DNA of 41,612 bases from a virus. A model generated the notes under the pieces. That model worked only from the letters and a program-made list of their open reading frames with translations, was not told where the DNA came from and made no database searches. The stretch lies in IMG/VR virus record IMGVR_UViG_3300033153_006658, positions 1 to 41,612 of that record; one strand, given 5' to 3'. The translations under genes were made by a program, and so were the position numbers. Below are positions 2,624 through 9,510 of the stretch, piece by piece; position 1 is the first letter of the stretch, and the number at the start of each line of letters is the position of its first letter.

Positions 2624-2652
2624 TTGCAATATTCTAAAATATCTGGTATGAT
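2624..2652 (+). promoter_or_regulatory. Plus-strand promoter for the replication gene
   Basis: TTGCAA (2624-2629), a 17-base spacer and TATGAT (2647-2652) form a sigma70-type promoter. The predicted start is near 2659, just ahead of the structured leader. It is divergent from the minus-strand promoter 33 bases away. Confidence 0.55.
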
Positions 2653-2659
2653 GGAATTC

Positions 2660-2783
2660 GTAATTAACCGCTAAACAGATGAATTATAAATTTGTATTAC
2701 CAGTTTCAAGCACTCTAAATGTTTAGCGGTGTTTTTGTGTTTGGACTGGTATTATAAGTTTTTAATTTTGTAACACCGCTAAT
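2660..2783 (+). promoter_or_regulatory. Structured leader with competing inverted repeats
   Basis: ACCGCTAAAC (2667-2676) pairs perfectly with GTTTAGCGGT (2721-2730), which is followed by a T-rich stretch, so the first pairing resembles a terminator. TTAGCGGTGTT (2723-2733) also pairs perfectly with AACACCGCTAA (2772-2782), which ends one base before the ATG at 2784. The middle arm can therefore pair with only one partner at a time. The same octamers could alternatively be DNA operator sites (ACCGCTAA at 2667 and 2775, inverted at 2723). A 15-codon leader ORF lies between the first two arms. Confidence 0.6.
2679..2726 (+). CDS. 15-codon leader peptide (uORF)
   Basis: ATG 2679 opens a short frame, MNYKFVLPVSSTLNV, whose TAG stop (2724-2726) lies within the 3' arm of the first leader hairpin. 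A ribosome finishing this peptide would cover that arm. This is the layout of known leader-peptide attenuators, so I call it a candidate regulatory uORF. No codon run points to an amino-acid signal. Confidence 0.4.
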   Translation: MNYKFVLPVSSTLNV

Positions 2784-3485
2784 ATGGCAAGTAAGAGAAT
2801 GATACATTATGAGTTATGGGAGGATGAGGATTTTGGTTCCTTATCTCCTAATGCTAAAATCTTATTTATAGGTTGTATTTCACAAGCTGATGATGAAGGA
2901 CGTCTAAAAGCTAATGACAATTATTTAAGAGGACGTATTTTTATGTATAATGATATTTCATTAAAGAAAATATCTGAACTTTTAGATGAGATAAATGATA
3001 AGCTTTCGAATTTCACTTTATATAAAGTTGATGGAAAGAAATATATTCAATTCGATAAGTGGACAAAATACCAAAAACTAAGACCTGAAAGAATTACCTC
3101 TTCAGAAATACCTTTACCAAGCGATGCTGACAAGTGTCGGACAGATGTCGGACAAGTGTCGGCGGATTGTCCGCATAGTTCTAGTTCTAGTTCTAGTATT
3201 AGTTCTAGTGTTAGTACTAGGGTCGAAGGCTGCATGACTGCAGCGGAGTTCGACGAGTTCTGGATCTTATATCCAAGAAAAGATGGGAAAAAACCATCAT
3301 GGGATAAATTTAAAAAACTTAAATCTAATTTACTTCCTACAATACTAGCCGCTGTTAAAAGACAATCACTAAACCCAGATTGGGTTGGGACATTTATACC
3401 AATGCCTCTTACATGGATTAATCAAGAACGATGGAATGATGAAGCAAAAGGAGCTGAAATAATTGAAGTAGCTATAATCAAATAA
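2784..3485 (+). CDS. Phage replication initiator (O-like), ori within gene
   Basis: This 233-residue protein has an N-terminal winged-helix-type domain of the phage replisome-organiser kind (about 1-110: RMIHYELWEDEDFGSLSPN opening, then KYIQFDKWTKYQ). A serine-rich linker follows (about 130-145), then a C-terminal domain beginning FDEFWILYPRKDGKK and ending near TWINQERWND, which is typical of phage replication proteins that bring in the host helicase. DNA repeats inside the gene (3128-3218) resemble an origin, as in lambda gene O. It is the first gene of the rightward unit and sits under a complex leader. No phage polymerase or helicase is seen, so it probably recruits the host replisome. 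Confidence 0.75.
   Translation: MASKRMIHYELWEDEDFGSLSPNAKILFIGCISQADDEGRLKANDNYLRGRIFMYNDISLKKISELLDEINDKLSNFTLYKVDGKKYIQFDKWTKYQKLRPERITSSEIPLPSDADKCRTDVGQVSADCPHSSSSSSSISSSVSTRVEGCMTAAEFDEFWILYPRKDGKKPSWDKFKKLKSNLLPTILAAVKRQSLNPDWVGTFIPMPLTWINQERWNDEAKGAEIIEVAIIK
3128..3171 (+). repeat. Four 11-bp iterons inside the replication gene
   Basis: Four head-to-tail 11-base units start at 3128, 3139, 3150 and 3161. The first three follow the pattern kGACArrTGTC, where GACA and TGTC make each unit a small inverted repeat; the fourth is degenerate but keeps TTGTC. Together with the adjoining hexamers they are the best candidate for initiator binding sites and the replication origin. Confidence 0.65.
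3177..3218 (+). repeat. Seven hexamer repeats (AGTTCT type)
   Basis: Seven tandem hexamers follow the iterons: AGTTCT occurs four times, with variants AGTATT, AGTGTT and AGTACT. They encode the poly-serine linker of the initiator. They could be a simple coding repeat, or the unwinding part of an origin placed in a disordered protein linker. Confidence 0.7.
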
Positions 3486-4349: not shown

Positions 4350-4378
4350 TTTACTTTTATATATAGTCGTGCTATTAT
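4350..4378 (+). promoter_or_regulatory. Promoter of candidate small RNA
   Basis: TTTACT (4350-4355), a 17-base spacer and TATTAT (4373-4378) form a plausible promoter. The start would be near 4385, only about 70 bases before a terminator. Confidence 0.5.
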
Positions 4379-4384
4379 CTAAGT

Positions 4385-4452
4385 AGAATAATTCTTTGAT
4401 TAAGAATATCATAGTTGTTTTTGTTGCATAGAGAGCCCTTATGGGGCTTTTT
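4385..4452 (+). ncRNA. Candidate small RNA
   Basis: Between a promoter at 4350-4378 and a terminator at 4434-4452 there is no usable reading frame. The ~68-nt transcript would hold a 6-bp hairpin (ATTCTT 4391-4396 with AAGAAT 4402-4407), a T-rich single-stranded stretch and the terminator stem. This is the usual shape of a short regulatory RNA. No known family is recognised, and the target is unknown. Confidence 0.45.
4434..4452 (+). terminator. Rho-independent terminator
   Basis: AGCCC (4434-4438) pairs with GGGCT (4444-4448) and is followed by a T-run to 4452. It ends the candidate small RNA and insulates the promoter at 4474. Confidence 0.75.
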
Positions 4453-4473
4453 ATGTTTCTTAGTATTTTAGTA

Positions 4474-4528: not shown

Positions 4529-4684
4529 ATGAAAGTATACGGTACTACATTAGCAGAACATTACGGTCTGTCCTCTTCTAGGATAAAGTCGATAGCATCT
4601 GATCGTGGATGGTCTTTAAAAAATCTTGAGGGGATGATTAACATGATAGTCTTTCTCGAGAGTCGTAAGGTGTTTCGCAAATAA
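4529..4684 (+). CDS. 51-residue HTH-like DNA-binding protein
   Basis: This small basic protein (start MKVYGTTLAEHYG) has a segment, TLAEHYGLSSSRIKSIASDR at about residues 7-26, that reads as a helix-turn-helix: an A-x-x-Y-G-L turn followed by a serine/arginine recognition helix. It is the first gene after a strong promoter, so it may be a small early regulator. The assignment rests on the HTH pattern alone. Confidence 0.6.
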   Translation: MKVYGTTLAEHYGLSSSRIKSIASDRGWSLKNLEGMINMIVFLESRKVFRK

Positions 4685-6201: not shown

Positions 6202-6278
6202 GCCACTTTAGCTCAGAAGGTTAGAGCAACGGATTTGTAATCCGAAGGTCGTTGGTTCGATTCCAACATGTGGCTCCA
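6202..6278 (+). tRNA. tRNA-Thr(TGT)
   Basis: The sequence folds as a normal cloverleaf with the loop TTTGTAA (anticodon TGT), a D-arm GCTC/GAGC, a T-arm GTTGG/CCAAC and an encoded CCA. There are mismatches at acceptor pair 6-67 (T-T) and at the base of the anticodon stem (A-A). It is followed with no spacer by tRNA-Pro. Confidence 0.9.
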
Positions 6279-6355
6279 CAGGGTATAGTGTAGTTGGTCA
6301 ACACGGGGGTCTTGGATACCTCAAATCTTAGGTTCGAATCCTAATACCCTGACCA
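6279..6355 (+). tRNA. tRNA-Pro(TGG)
   Basis: The acceptor CAGGGTA/TACCCTG is perfect. The D-arm is GTGT/ACAC, the anticodon loop CTTGGAT gives TGG, the T-arm is TTAGG/CCTAA, and CCA is encoded. It abuts tRNA-Thr directly, so the two need a precise cut to separate. Confidence 0.92.
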
Positions 6356-6359
6356 TATG

Positions 6360-6434
6360 GTGGGCATAGATTAACGGTTAAATCGTTCGGTTGTGATCCG
6401 AAAGATGTGAGTTCGATTCTCACTGCTCACACCA
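6360..6434 (+). tRNA. tRNA-His(GTG)
   Basis: The acceptor GTGGGCA/TGCTCAC has one G-T pair. The anticodon stem TTCGG/CCGAA holds loop TTGTGAT (anticodon GTG), the T-arm is GTGAG/CTCAC, and CCA is encoded. A G is encoded at -1 (6359), but the discriminator is A, not the C that normally faces G-1 in bacterial His tRNAs. Confidence 0.9.
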
Positions 6435-6449
6435 TGATAATTATTTAAA

Positions 6450-6524
6450 GCGGGATGGAGAAATTGGTATCTCACTTGTCTCATAAGCAAGAGTTTTGGG
6501 TTCGAGTCCCAATCTCCGCAACCA
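6450..6524 (+). tRNA. tRNA-Met(CAT), initiator-like D-stem
   Basis: The anticodon loop CTCATAA gives CAT within CTTGT/GCAAG. The D-stem GAGA/TCTC has purine-11:pyrimidine-24, a trait of initiator tRNAs, and the 3' end GCAACCA matches fMet tRNAs. The acceptor stem is imperfect (weak at pairs 6-7, or one extra base before the acceptor), and the GGG/CCC pairs of true initiators are absent. It could also be an Ile2-type tRNA decoding ATA. Confidence 0.75.
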
Positions 6525-6548
6525 ATTTATATCTACTAAAAACAAACT

Positions 6549-7445
6549 ATGTTTAAAGAGTATCAACACATTGAAAGATTCGGGACTTCAGCAGTTGAGA
6601 ATATTGAGTTTGGAGAATGTTATGTATTCCCTAAAATAGATGGAACTAATGCCTCTGTTTGGATGGAGAATGGCGTTGTATGTGCTGGAAGTAGAAGAAG
6701 ACAGCTATCTTTAGAAAGTGATAATGCTGGTTTTTATGCTTGGGTAATAGAACAAGAGAATATTAAAAAATATTTAGAGGCAAATCCTGATCATAGATTA
6801 TATGGTGAGTGGCTTGTACCTCATTCTTTAAAGACTTATAGAGAAGATGCGTGGAGAGATTTTTATGTATTTGATGTGACTGTAGATATCAGTTCTGAAG
6901 GAGAATATTATGAAAACTATGAAAAGTATAGTAAAGATATGGAAGAGTTCGACATTAACTACATACCGCCTATAAGAATAGTTAAAAGTGGTTCGTTTGA
7001 GCAATTCAACAACCTATTAGAGGCTAATAATTATCTCATTGTTGATGGTCAGGGAGCTGGAGAAGGTATAGTTTTAAAGAATTATAACTATAAAAATAAA
7101 TTTGGTAGAATTAACTGGGCTAAAATTGTAACATCTGAGTTTAAAGAGAAACATCACAAAGAAATGGGTGCTCCTGTTGTAAATGGGACAACTATGATAG
7201 AGGAAAAAATAGTGGAAAAATATTGTACGACAGCATTAATTGAGAAAGAATATGCTAAGATAGAGAATGAAGAGAAAGAAGGGTGGAGTGGTAAATGTAT
7301 TCCTAGATTATTAGGTACAGTATATCATTGTATAGTAACTGAAGAATGTTGGAATTTTATCAAAGAACACAAAAACCCGACTGTAAATTTCAAAACACTA
7401 CAATATTTTGTTATCAATAAAGTTAAACAATTCCTTAATATATAA
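6549..7445 (+). CDS. Rnl2-type RNA ligase
   Basis: This 298-residue protein has the nucleotidyltransferase motifs of the Rnl2/RNA-editing-ligase family: motif I KIDGTN with the AMP-accepting Lys29, motif III LYGEW (84-88), motif IV EGIVLK (172-177) and motif V WAKIV (190-194). The enzyme seals 3'-OH/5'-phosphate RNA ends using ATP. It sits directly between four tRNA genes and polynucleotide kinase-phosphatase, with only 3 bases to the latter, so the pair forms a tRNA repair module analogous to T4. The C-terminal ~100 residues are less conserved. The start is chosen at ATG 6549, preceded by AACAAACT. Confidence 0.88.
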   Translation: MFKEYQHIERFGTSAVENIEFGECYVFPKIDGTNASVWMENGVVCAGSRRRQLSLESDNAGFYAWVIEQENIKKYLEANPDHRLYGEWLVPHSLKTYREDAWRDFYVFDVTVDISSEGEYYENYEKYSKDMEEFDINYIPPIRIVKSGSFEQFNNLLEANNYLIVDGQGAGEGIVLKNYNYKNKFGRINWAKIVTSEFKEKHHKEMGAPVVNGTTMIEEKIVEKYCTTALIEKEYAKIENEEKEGWSGKCIPRLLGTVYHCIVTEECWNFIKEHKNPTVNFKTLQYFVINKVKQFLNI

Positions 7446-7448
7446 GCT

Positions 7449-8297
7449 ATGAAAAAGATAATCTTGTTAAAAGGGCTTCCAGCCTCAGGTAAAACCACAT
7501 GGGCTAAGAAAATGGTCAGTGATAATCCTGGAATGTATAAACGTGTCAATAAGGATGATTTAAGAGCGATGCTTGACAATGGGAAGTGGAGTAAACATAA
7601 TGAGAAATTTATTATTCAGCTAAGAGATCAAATAATTATAAATGCACTAAATAGTGGTCAGCACGTAATAGTTGACGACACTAATTTAAATAAAAGGCAT
7701 GAAAAGATGATGATAACAATAGCTAAAGATAACAACGCTATTGTGGAAGTTAAAGAGTTTGACACAGACTATAAAGAATGTATAAAAAGAGATGCTAAAA
7801 GAGAAAATAGTGTTGGAGAGAAAGTAATAAAAGATATGTATAATAAATATCTTAAAGCTGACCCAGAGCCTATAAAATATAATCCATGTTTAAAGCAATG
7901 TATTATTGTAGATATAGACGGGACTCTTGCAAAAATGAATGATCGTAGTCCTTATGATTGGGGAAAAGTAGGAGAGGATTCAGTACATAAGCACATTAAA
8001 GGTATTGTTGATATGTACTATGAAGATTTTGATATAATTATAATGACTGGAAGAGATGGGTGTTGTGAAAATGAGACAAGAGAATGGCTGTCACAGAATG
8101 GTATAGGGTATACAGCTTTACATATAAGACCAGAGGGAAATAACGAGAGCGATGTAATAATAAAAGAAAGAATGTATAGAGAGCATATAGAAGGGAAATA
8201 TAATGTAGAATTTGTATTGGATGATAGAGATTGTGTTGTAGAAATGTGGAGAAATCTTGGTTTAAAGTGTTTACAAGTGAATTATGGAGATTTTTAA
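7449..8297 (+). CDS. pseT-like: Polynucleotide kinase-phosphatase
   Basis: This 282-residue protein has the T4 Pnkp domain order. The N-terminal kinase has P-loop GLPASGKT (9-16), an acid at D36 and a lid KRDAKRENSVGEK (about 113-125). The C-terminal HAD phosphatase has DIDGTL (155-160, nucleophile D155), then the GRDG segment and VLDDRDCVVEMWR, very close to the T4 C-terminal pattern. It converts cleaved RNA ends (5'-OH, 2',3'-cyclic or 3' phosphate) into the 5'-phosphate/3'-OH ends that the upstream ligase joins. Substrates are probably tRNAs cut at the anticodon by host nucleases. The length equals the family norm. Confidence 0.92.
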   Translation: MKKIILLKGLPASGKTTWAKKMVSDNPGMYKRVNKDDLRAMLDNGKWSKHNEKFIIQLRDQIIINALNSGQHVIVDDTNLNKRHEKMMITIAKDNNAIVEVKEFDTDYKECIKRDAKRENSVGEKVIKDMYNKYLKADPEPIKYNPCLKQCIIVDIDGTLAKMNDRSPYDWGKVGEDSVHKHIKGIVDMYYEDFDIIIMTGRDGCCENETREWLSQNGIGYTALHIRPEGNNESDVIIKERMYREHIEGKYNVEFVLDDRDCVVEMWRNLGLKCLQVNYGDF

Positions 8298-8306
8298 ATA
8301 TTATAA

Positions 8307-8410
8307 GGGGGTAAATTGGAAATCGACATATATTGGGAGTAATAAATCGACCTAGAACAAACACTCAATGCAGTATATGGACTAGGGTTCGACTCCCTAT
8401 ACCTCCACCA
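8307..8410 (+). pseudogene. Degenerate tRNA with intact acceptor and T arms
   Basis: GGGGGTA (8307-8313) pairs with TACCTCC (8400-8406), and TAGGG/CCCTA forms a T-arm with loop TTCGACT; ACCA follows. The 69 bases between acceptor and T-arm do not give a convincing D-arm or a 7-base anticodon loop, and AAATCGAC occurs twice there, suggesting a small duplication. It is either a broken tRNA or a tRNA-like RNA that still ends in CCA. Confidence 0.6.
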
Positions 8411-8413
8411 TAT

Positions 8414-8497
8414 GGGTCAGTATGCAAATGTTAAGCAAGCAGACTGTAAATCTGTTGTCCTCGGACGTTGTAGGTTCAAATCCTACCTGGCTCACCA
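8414..8497 (+). tRNA. tRNA-Tyr(GTA)
   Basis: This is a class II tRNA. The acceptor is GGGTCAG/CTGGCTC with G-T pairs, the D-arm TGC/GCA, and the anticodon loop CTGTAAA gives GTA. The long variable arm is GTCC-TC-GGAC, the T-arm GTAGG/CCTAC, and CCA is encoded. Confidence 0.93.
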
Positions 8498-8547: not shown

Positions 8548-9405
8548 ATGTATAGAGATATTCAACAAAGAGAACAAAGTAAAGAGATGAGTGAGGGAGC
8601 TATTGCGGCTCTAATCTCTGTTATAGTGGTTATAGTGTTAATGTTTTTAACACTCATTTTTAGTTCATGGGAAATAGTTTCTTCAGGACATATGGGGGTT
8701 TATGTAACAATGGGAAAAGTAAGTGAATTACCTCTTGAAGAGGGATTTCATTGGAAAAAACCATTTATATCCTCTATAAAAGAAATGGATATTAGAAATA
8801 TCAAAAAAGAAGTTCGTGCTGATGCAGGATCAAAGGATCTTCAAACAGTACAAACTACAATTGCAGTAAATTATAAACTAGATCCTACATATGTTGCAGA
8901 AATGTATAAAACTGTAGGTATGGGATACGATGCCAAAATTATAGCTCCAAGTATTGAAGAGGCAGTAAAATCTGTTACAGCTTTATATACGGCTGAAGAG
9001 CTAATCACGAAAAGAAGTGAAGTGAGTACTAATTTAAAGGATCTTTTAAAAGAACGCCTTCAACTAGAACACATCATTCTTATTCAAACAAGTATTACAG
9101 ATTTCTCATTCTCAGATCAATTTGATAAAGCTGTCGAAAGAAAAGTTACAGCTGAACAAAGAGCAATTGAGGAAGAGAATAACAAACGAGCTTCACAAGC
9201 AAGAGCAGATCAGCTTATTATTAATGCTGAAGCTGAAGCAAAAAGTATAGAAATTAGAACTGAAGCAATGGTAAACAAAGGAGAATCAATTATCGAACTA
9301 GAAAAGATTCGAAACCAAGAACGAGCCATTGAAAAATGGAATGGAGTTCTACCAGTAAATTTCTACGGGAATGCAGCAATGCCTTTTGTAAACGTAGGGA
9401 AATAA
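8548..9405 (+). CDS. SPFH/prohibitin-like membrane protein
   Basis: This 285-residue protein has one transmembrane segment (about 17-39) followed by a Band-7/SPFH domain (about 45-220: SSGHMGVYVTMGKV, LEEGFHWKKPF, KDLQTVQTTIAVNYKLDP, the family's typical beta pattern). A long charged helix rich in A, E and R follows (about 195-270), ending near VLPVNFYGN. Such proteins build ring-like membrane scaffolds and often control membrane proteases or lysis timing. It lies between tRNA-Tyr and small genes, alone inside a 16-bp inverted repeat. It may be host-derived and may protect or reorganise the host membrane; that role is inferred. Confidence 0.88.
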   Translation: MYRDIQQREQSKEMSEGAIAALISVIVVIVLMFLTLIFSSWEIVSSGHMGVYVTMGKVSELPLEEGFHWKKPFISSIKEMDIRNIKKEVRADAGSKDLQTVQTTIAVNYKLDPTYVAEMYKTVGMGYDAKIIAPSIEEAVKSVTALYTAEELITKRSEVSTNLKDLLKERLQLEHIILIQTSITDFSFSDQFDKAVERKVTAEQRAIEEENNKRASQARADQLIINAEAEAKSIEIRTEAMVNKGESIIELEKIRNQERAIEKWNGVLPVNFYGNAAMPFVNVGK

Positions 9406-9433: not shown

Positions 9434-9510
9434 GGGAATTAGAAAGACCTCCCCATTTGAGCATTGTAAAGAGGCTTGGGAGGTGTCTACATAAAGAATA
9501 CTATTTATAA
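9418..9510 (+). CDS. Possible 30-residue peptide
   Basis: ATG 9418, preceded by AACAACAA as at other starts, opens a frame of 30 codons (begins MHRYFRELERPPHLSIVKRL) that ends just before the next leader. It is basic and arginine-rich. It overlaps the inverted repeat and a hairpin, so it may be chance. Confidence 0.3.
   Translation: MHRYFRELERPPHLSIVKRLGRCLHKEYYL
9445..9488 (+). other. Hairpin after SPFH gene
   Basis: AGACCTCCC (9445-9453) pairs with GGGAGG (9478-9483) plus TCT (9486-9488), leaving a two-base bulge and a 24-base loop. No clear T-run follows. It may be a weak terminator or an mRNA end structure. Confidence 0.4.

Follow-up and report, generated by a model that had tools for sequence, protein, structure and literature searches.

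The replication initiator gene of a phage is very probably preceded by a real RNA switch acting on phage replication, as judged by comparing its leader with that of a distantly related phage. One segment of this leader (arm B) is complementary to two others, one at the start of a short upstream open reading frame (uORF) and the other at the start of the initiator, and this shared-arm design is conserved in its layout in both phages, although the letters differ. An RNA element is favoured over a protein operator by the conserved length and stop of the uORF, by the position of the two partner segments (arms A and C) at two start codons, and by a covarying hairpin that presents arm B.

Genome context and gene starts

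The window, i.e. the whole stretch of 41,612 nt that was analysed (IMGVR_UViG_3300033153_006658), is the genome of a phage; it has a terminal direct repeat of 114 nt and a GC content of 32%. Its features around the leader are listed in Table 1. No integrase or repressor was recognised among the window proteins scanned. A Shine-Dalgarno-like motif was found at only one of 56 gene starts in the window and at none of 36 in the related phage L112, whereas another phage, L027, has one at 21 of 41 starts. The gene starts of the window are instead rich in A and T and show TAA(C/T) at about -12 and T at -1, and CCG occurs within 20 nt of the start codon in only two of 54 starts. As both phages are without Shine-Dalgarno sites, their starts must sit in open, A/T-rich RNA, so that the GC-rich CCGCTA at a start is out of place.

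Table 1. Position of the leader elements and of the neighbouring features in the window
Feature	Position	Strand	Description
Leftward early operon	starts near 2556	-	encodes a Gp157/Gam-like protein and a phosphoesterase
Promoter P1	2624..2652	+	TTGCAA, 17-nt spacer, TATGAT, extended -10 TG
Arm A	2667..2677	+	ACCGCTAAACA; immediately 5' of the uORF start; partner of B
uORF	2679..2726	+	MNYKFVLPVSSTLNV followed by the stop, 15 codons; TAG at 2724-2726 within B
Arm D	2682..2704	+	5' strand of the long hairpin, within the uORF; 21 of 23 positions pair with E
Arm B	2720..2733	+	TGTTTAGCGGTGTT; partner of A via 2720-2730 and of C via 2723-2733; at the tip of D:E
T-rich stretch 3' of B	2731..2743	+	GTTTTTGTGTTTG; counterpart after B in L112 is GTTTTGTTG
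Arm E	2745..2767	+	3' strand of the long hairpin
Candidate promoter P2	2746..2755	+	extended -10 CTGGTATTAT, repeats the -10 region of P1; without -35 element
Arm C	2772..2782	+	AACACCGCTAA; ends 1 nt short of the initiator start codon; partner of B
Rightward operon		+	first gene is the initiator at 2784
Replication initiator	2784..3485	+	233 aa; PHROG replication initiation proteins (phrog_270, E 1e-20; phrog_1408, E 3e-20)
Iteron-like tandem repeats	3129..3220	+	within the initiator gene; 3129-3162 (GACAAGTGTCGG, 11-nt period) and 3176-3220 (TAGTTC)

The two families of iteron-like repeats within the initiator gene are a candidate replication origin. Elsewhere in the window, genes for an RNA ligase and a polynucleotide kinase-phosphatase (PNKP) stand beside five tRNA genes and a tmRNA-like element (6202-8497), a set that suggests RNA repair or tRNA defence. 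The tmRNA match itself (8307-8410, plus strand) covers only about 104 nt at 54.9 bits, above the Rfam cut-off; it has a tRNA-like 3' end (GGGTTCGACTCCC...CCTCCACCA) and a tmRNA-like 5' end, leaves almost no space for a tag reading frame, and is directly followed by a tRNA-Tyr gene, and it is possibly a phage-borne mini-tmRNA or a tRNA-like decoy. In addition, a match to the abiF RNA family (9447-9483, minus strand, 55 bits) lies on the strand opposite to short early genes.

Promoters around the leader

The promoter that the first-pass annotation had placed ahead of the initiator is present: P1 ranks among the seven best sigma70-like extended -10 sites of the genome, and its transcription start would lie at about 2659. 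A divergent leftward promoter on the minus strand (TTGCTT-17-TATGAT, -10 box 2568-2563) is nearly identical to P1 when read by eye. The other early promoters, also read by eye, stand about 16-20 nt from the first start codons, and the leader of 125 nt between P1 and the initiator is therefore unusual. The candidate P2 is closer to the initiator and would, if used, leave a 5' untranslated region of about 22 nt. A Bacteroidetes-type promoter (TTTG-N19-TAATTTTG) at 2740-2770 was considered and rejected, since such sites occur at chance level (4 found, 2.5 expected), and the heads of the early operons carry sigma70-like extended -10 sites. No convincing antisense promoter was seen, promoter-like sites on the minus strand occurring at chance density.

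A further promoter arrangement was observed downstream, at 4350-4456 (plus strand), where a good intrinsic terminator stands no more than about 75 nt behind a promoter (TTTACT-17-TATTAT), with a second promoter (TTGACA-17-TAGTAT) and a 51-aa early ORF (4529-4684) after it. This region is likely to be a small RNA or a second attenuated leader.

Arms A, B and C and the uORF

The first-pass annotation had described a 15-codon ORF with its stop in a hairpin arm, and a middle arm with two perfect partners, and both observations hold. Arms A and B form 11 of 11 possible pairs (2667-2677 with 2720-2730, arm A thus reaching 2677 and not 2676 as first given), and B and C likewise form 11 of 11 (2723-2733 with 2772-2782). 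The octamer ACCGCTAA, of which three copies had been noted, has exactly these three copies in the 41.6 kb of the window, all of them in the leader, where 0.41 would be expected. When the leader was shuffled 20,000 times with its dinucleotides kept, no triple of 11-nt arms sharing B arose, and a scan of 8,296 stretches of the genome found none elsewhere.

The uORF by itself is uninformative, as 37.5% of the shuffled leaders contain one of at least 10 codons. Furthermore, its start is poor by the phage's own rules, with a G at -1 and a score below about 98% of the gene starts. No run of regulatory codons was found in the peptides of the uORF in the window (MNYKFVLPVSSTLNV) and in L112 (MEYCSNKKAVNALNL), in which known stall motifs were judged by eye only.

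The long hairpin D:E

The first-pass annotation missed a long hairpin formed by arms D and E, which, and not B:C, is the minimum-energy fold of the full leader. In this layout B is at the tip, and the starts of the uORF and of the initiator are at the feet. During co-transcriptional folding A:B is the minimum-energy structure after B has been transcribed and before E is made (-15.7 kcal/mol), and D:E then overtakes it. Non-pseudoknotted folding prefers D:E and leaves A and C mostly free, with a mean unpaired probability of 0.56 and 0.75 for C. As nested folding leaves C mostly open, B:C must form transiently or as a pseudoknot with D:E.

Neither hairpin resembles a good intrinsic terminator. 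A:B, with its 42-nt loop, scores -51 in the window and the core of D:E about -73, and the corresponding scores in L112 are -42 (A:B) and -36 (D:E). The two ordinary intrinsic terminators of the window genome reach about -7 and -2. The T-rich stretch after B likewise does poorly as the tail of a terminator formed by A:B. The description of A:B as terminator-like was thus not borne out.

Conservation of the leader in a related phage

Scans with alignments of the initiator gave 80 loci, in which the regions upstream of the initiators were inspected. One of them, L112 (IMG/VR 3300024262_000100), therefore came via its initiator protein, and not via the leader pattern. The two phages are related (terminase identity 34-35%), and their initiators have about 50% identity over 73 residues of the C-terminal domain. 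The N-terminal domains differ, with DUF6291 in L112 and none in the window; thus the leader has either outlived a domain swap or moved.

The leader of L112 has every element: arm A precedes the ATG of the uORF (AACCGCTACAA-ATG), the uORF has exactly 15 codons, its TAG lies in B at the hairpin tip and opens TAGCGG (...CTCTAAATCTG-TAG-CGGG, compared with ...CTCTAAATGTT-TAG-CGGT in the window), and arm C, a copy of A, stands at the initiator ATG (ATTAACCGCTACAA-ATG). The spacing from A to C is 108 bp in the window and 94 bp in L112, and B:C is just 8 bp in the latter. The base beside the CCGCTA/TAGCGG core reads, in the order A/B/C, A/T/A in the window and C/G/C in L112; this change fits the pairing, but is not decisive, as operators changing in concert would look alike. 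Among 287 candidate starts of the fetched initiator loci, an 8-nt triple ending at the start codon was found only in the window and in L112 (L133 being the same contig), and it has a single occurrence in the L112 genome.

Because the arms were misplaced when the two leaders were aligned with MAFFT, the pairs of D:E were compared by their distance from the centre of the hairpin. Both phages pair in one and the same register about this centre, with 26 (window) and 28 (L112) of 34 positions paired, while registers slid by 1-3 nt give 10-20 pairs. Twenty-one positions are paired in both phages, 13 of which have changed on both sides, four on one side and four not at all. In both phages B starts within 1-2 nt of the centre, and the fold of the L112 leader has a z-score of -4.4, with none of 200 shuffles as good. 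Paired changes of the kind that the first-pass annotation had proposed to look for in relatives were thus found in one relative: the comparison of the two leaders points to strong covariation in D:E, whereas A:B and B:C covary at a single position.

Searches in other genomes

An exact search for the triple-octamer pattern in viral contigs gave eight matches, none of which was a leader. Seven of these (L034-L040) are in unrelated phages with many ACCGCTA(A) repeats in both orientations, located in intergenic regions beside a coding gene, and the eighth was rejected as a coding-type repeat. Across 84,980 genomes the triple pattern gave nine matches, none with the leader architecture. The sequence CTCTAAATnTnTAGCGG is present in 40 viral contigs, and only in L112 is it flanked on both sides by copies of CCGCTA. 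When the terminase, capsid and PNKP of the window were used as bridges to relatives, only distant or partial relatives were found, and relatives of the initiator in phages, prophages and Bacteroidota genomes were nearly all within operons or without the triple. No Rfam family matched, and for C4 neither the window leader nor that of L112 gave a match up to E = 10.

Four other initiators, from Bacteroidota elements and phages, have strong hairpins in front, some with uORFs or with loops complementary to upstream or start sequences. They were left out of the count as kin in principle only: L100 (2844-2980) has an A:B of 8 bp and a weak C, L199 (upstream of 1501) has a 43-codon uORF that overlaps the start as well as a terminator hairpin, and L194 (upstream of 1483) and L192 (2430-2492) were likewise set aside. 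Leader control of initiators may be commoner than has been described.

Proposed mechanism and alternative explanations

The reading that we propose, and to which we give about an even chance, is a cis-acting RNA switch on the translation of the initiator: B would mask the start of the initiator except when covered by a ribosome that is finishing the uORF. We infer that transcription starts at P1, that the uORF is translated, that the switch acts in the direction given here and that translation of the two reading frames is coupled. The stretch would be transcribed as the leader of the initiator mRNA and would fold into D:E, exposing B at the tip. Since the start regions of the uORF and of the initiator can both pair with B, only one of the two can be bound at any moment. 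Pairing with C would close the start region of the initiator; a ribosome reading the uORF would stop within B, open the hairpin and cover B, which would release C and let the initiator be translated. If B were paired with A instead, the uORF would be shut and the system would stay off. A GC-rich helix over an A/T-rich start would be an effective block in phages without Shine-Dalgarno pairing. Several points speak against such a cis switch: folding does not predict B:C as the default state, the window's uORF has a poor start, only two members are available, and the predicted B:C helix of L112 has 8 bp.

The main alternative, which is unlikely but fits the anatomy equally, is a self-targeting RNA like P4 CI or C4, in which a short RNA would arise from transcripts ended or cut past the hairpin, and its tip B would pair in trans with both arms, A and C, of newly made transcripts, so that the uORF and initiator starts are blocked or transcription ends early, i.e. 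an RNA control of copy number or immunity. The order of the elements is that of seqA-seqB-seqC before the replication gene of P4, B is exposed at a hairpin tip, T-rich tails follow both E and B, and no integrase or repressor was recognised among the scanned proteins. However, the leader matches neither C4 nor any other RNA family in Rfam, its arms are shorter and closer together than those of P4, D:E and A:B are both poor as terminators, and a trans-acting RNA is unnecessary for explaining the anatomy. An extension of this model, which we hold to be rather unlikely as well, is an RNA-only circuit for copy number or immunity in a tailed phage: the trans repressor would be the initiator mRNA's own leader, its tip would pair with both starts, and specificity would come from the exchangeable anti-start sequence (ACCGCTAA-type versus ACCGCTAC-type). 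If true, related phages would form separate immunity groups.

Transcription attenuation, in which A:B would be an intrinsic terminator and the position of the ribosome on the uORF would choose between termination and read-through, is quite improbable. A:B is indeed the minimum-energy structure between the synthesis of B and that of E, and a T-rich stretch stands behind B in both phages; on the other hand, the 42-nt loop and the scores of A:B given above are against a terminator, the uORF is without a regulatory codon run, and D:E comes too late to serve as an antiterminator. The leader-peptide attenuator proposed by the first-pass annotation is thus supported in its leader ORF with mutually exclusive pairings, which are kept in L112 with compensatory changes, but not in its terminator half, and the full leader has its energy minimum in D:E.

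It is equally doubtful that the three copies of ACCGCTAA form an operator that binds a repressor or the initiator itself, beside P1 and the possible P2. The copies occur nowhere else in the genome, flank the possible P2 on both sides, and change together in L112. However, the octamer is non-palindromic and is missing around the leftward promoter, B resembles A in one of its flanks and C in the other, the distance from A to C differs between the phages, and the iteron-like repeats of the initiator gene are unlike the octamer. Moreover, besides the octamer, L112 keeps the length of the uORF, the placement at the start codons and a covarying hairpin, none of which an operator needs, and the operator that had been offered as the alternative to an RNA element is weakened accordingly. 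Finally, chance repeats in an untranslated leader without regulatory role are most improbable. In their favour are the poor start of the window's uORF and the fact that such a uORF is in itself no surprise, but the shuffle statistics and the independent conservation in L112 strongly disfavour them.

Comparison with known systems

Plasmids and the satellite phage P4 are the classic cases in which RNA controls replication initiators, and the earlier statement that nothing comparable was known for phage replication has to be corrected, since the P4 CI RNA (seqA/seqB/seqC) is a close functional parallel. By pairing with seqA and seqC, which lie upstream and downstream on one transcript, the CI RNA stops transcription of the replication genes (PMC4825925). 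Our simple triple test recovers the P4 triple at 8651/8463/8384. As in the operon of the P4 alpha replication gene, a segment of the window leader is complementary to an upstream and a downstream sequence before a replication gene. In P4, however, the segments are about 190 and 80 nt apart, and the effect comes from a processed CI RNA that terminates transcription prematurely. In the window, two of the arms adjoin start codons, one that of the 15-codon uORF and the other that of the initiator, and a single long hairpin carries B at its tip. There is also no sequence homology or Rfam match between them, and the initiator belongs with phrog_270/phrog_1408 and not with the alpha primase-helicase.

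Among plasmids, repA of R1 (IncFII) is translationally coupled to the leader ORF tap (PMC5717011), and in repY-repZ of ColIb-P9 (IncI) a pseudoknot controls repZ (PMC8383071). The window leader is like these systems in having a short leader ORF and alternative RNA structures at the initiator start; its anatomy fits theirs, and coupling is predicted. They differ in that tap-repA and repY-repZ use a countertranscribed antisense RNA, while in the window, which is a phage and not a plasmid, no convincing antisense promoter was seen and there is no Shine-Dalgarno sequence.

The C4 antisense RNA of P1 and P7 is made from the same promoter as its target, is complementary to a downstream start region, and controls an antirepressor. 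The window leader shares with it the complementarity to a downstream start region, but its target is the initiator and it has no Rfam C4 match. The leader-peptide attenuators of trp and ermC consist of a short leader ORF with mutually exclusive pairings. Like these, the window has a leader ORF that overlaps alternative arms, as does L112, but it has no control codons and no good terminator, and its shared arm masks two start regions. Taken together, the window leader shares its logic with P4, R1 and ColIb-P9, and lacks at least one tested defining feature of the attenuators, of P4 and of C4.

In a limited literature search, no description of a comparable leader for the initiator of a tailed phage was found. 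Its distinguishing feature is one exchangeable segment able to mask two start codons, in phages whose hosts are without Shine-Dalgarno pairing and where the start regions need to be open. It offers a directly testable model of how a phage without a recognisable repressor could time or limit its replication, and its architecture can serve as a search pattern upstream of further initiators.
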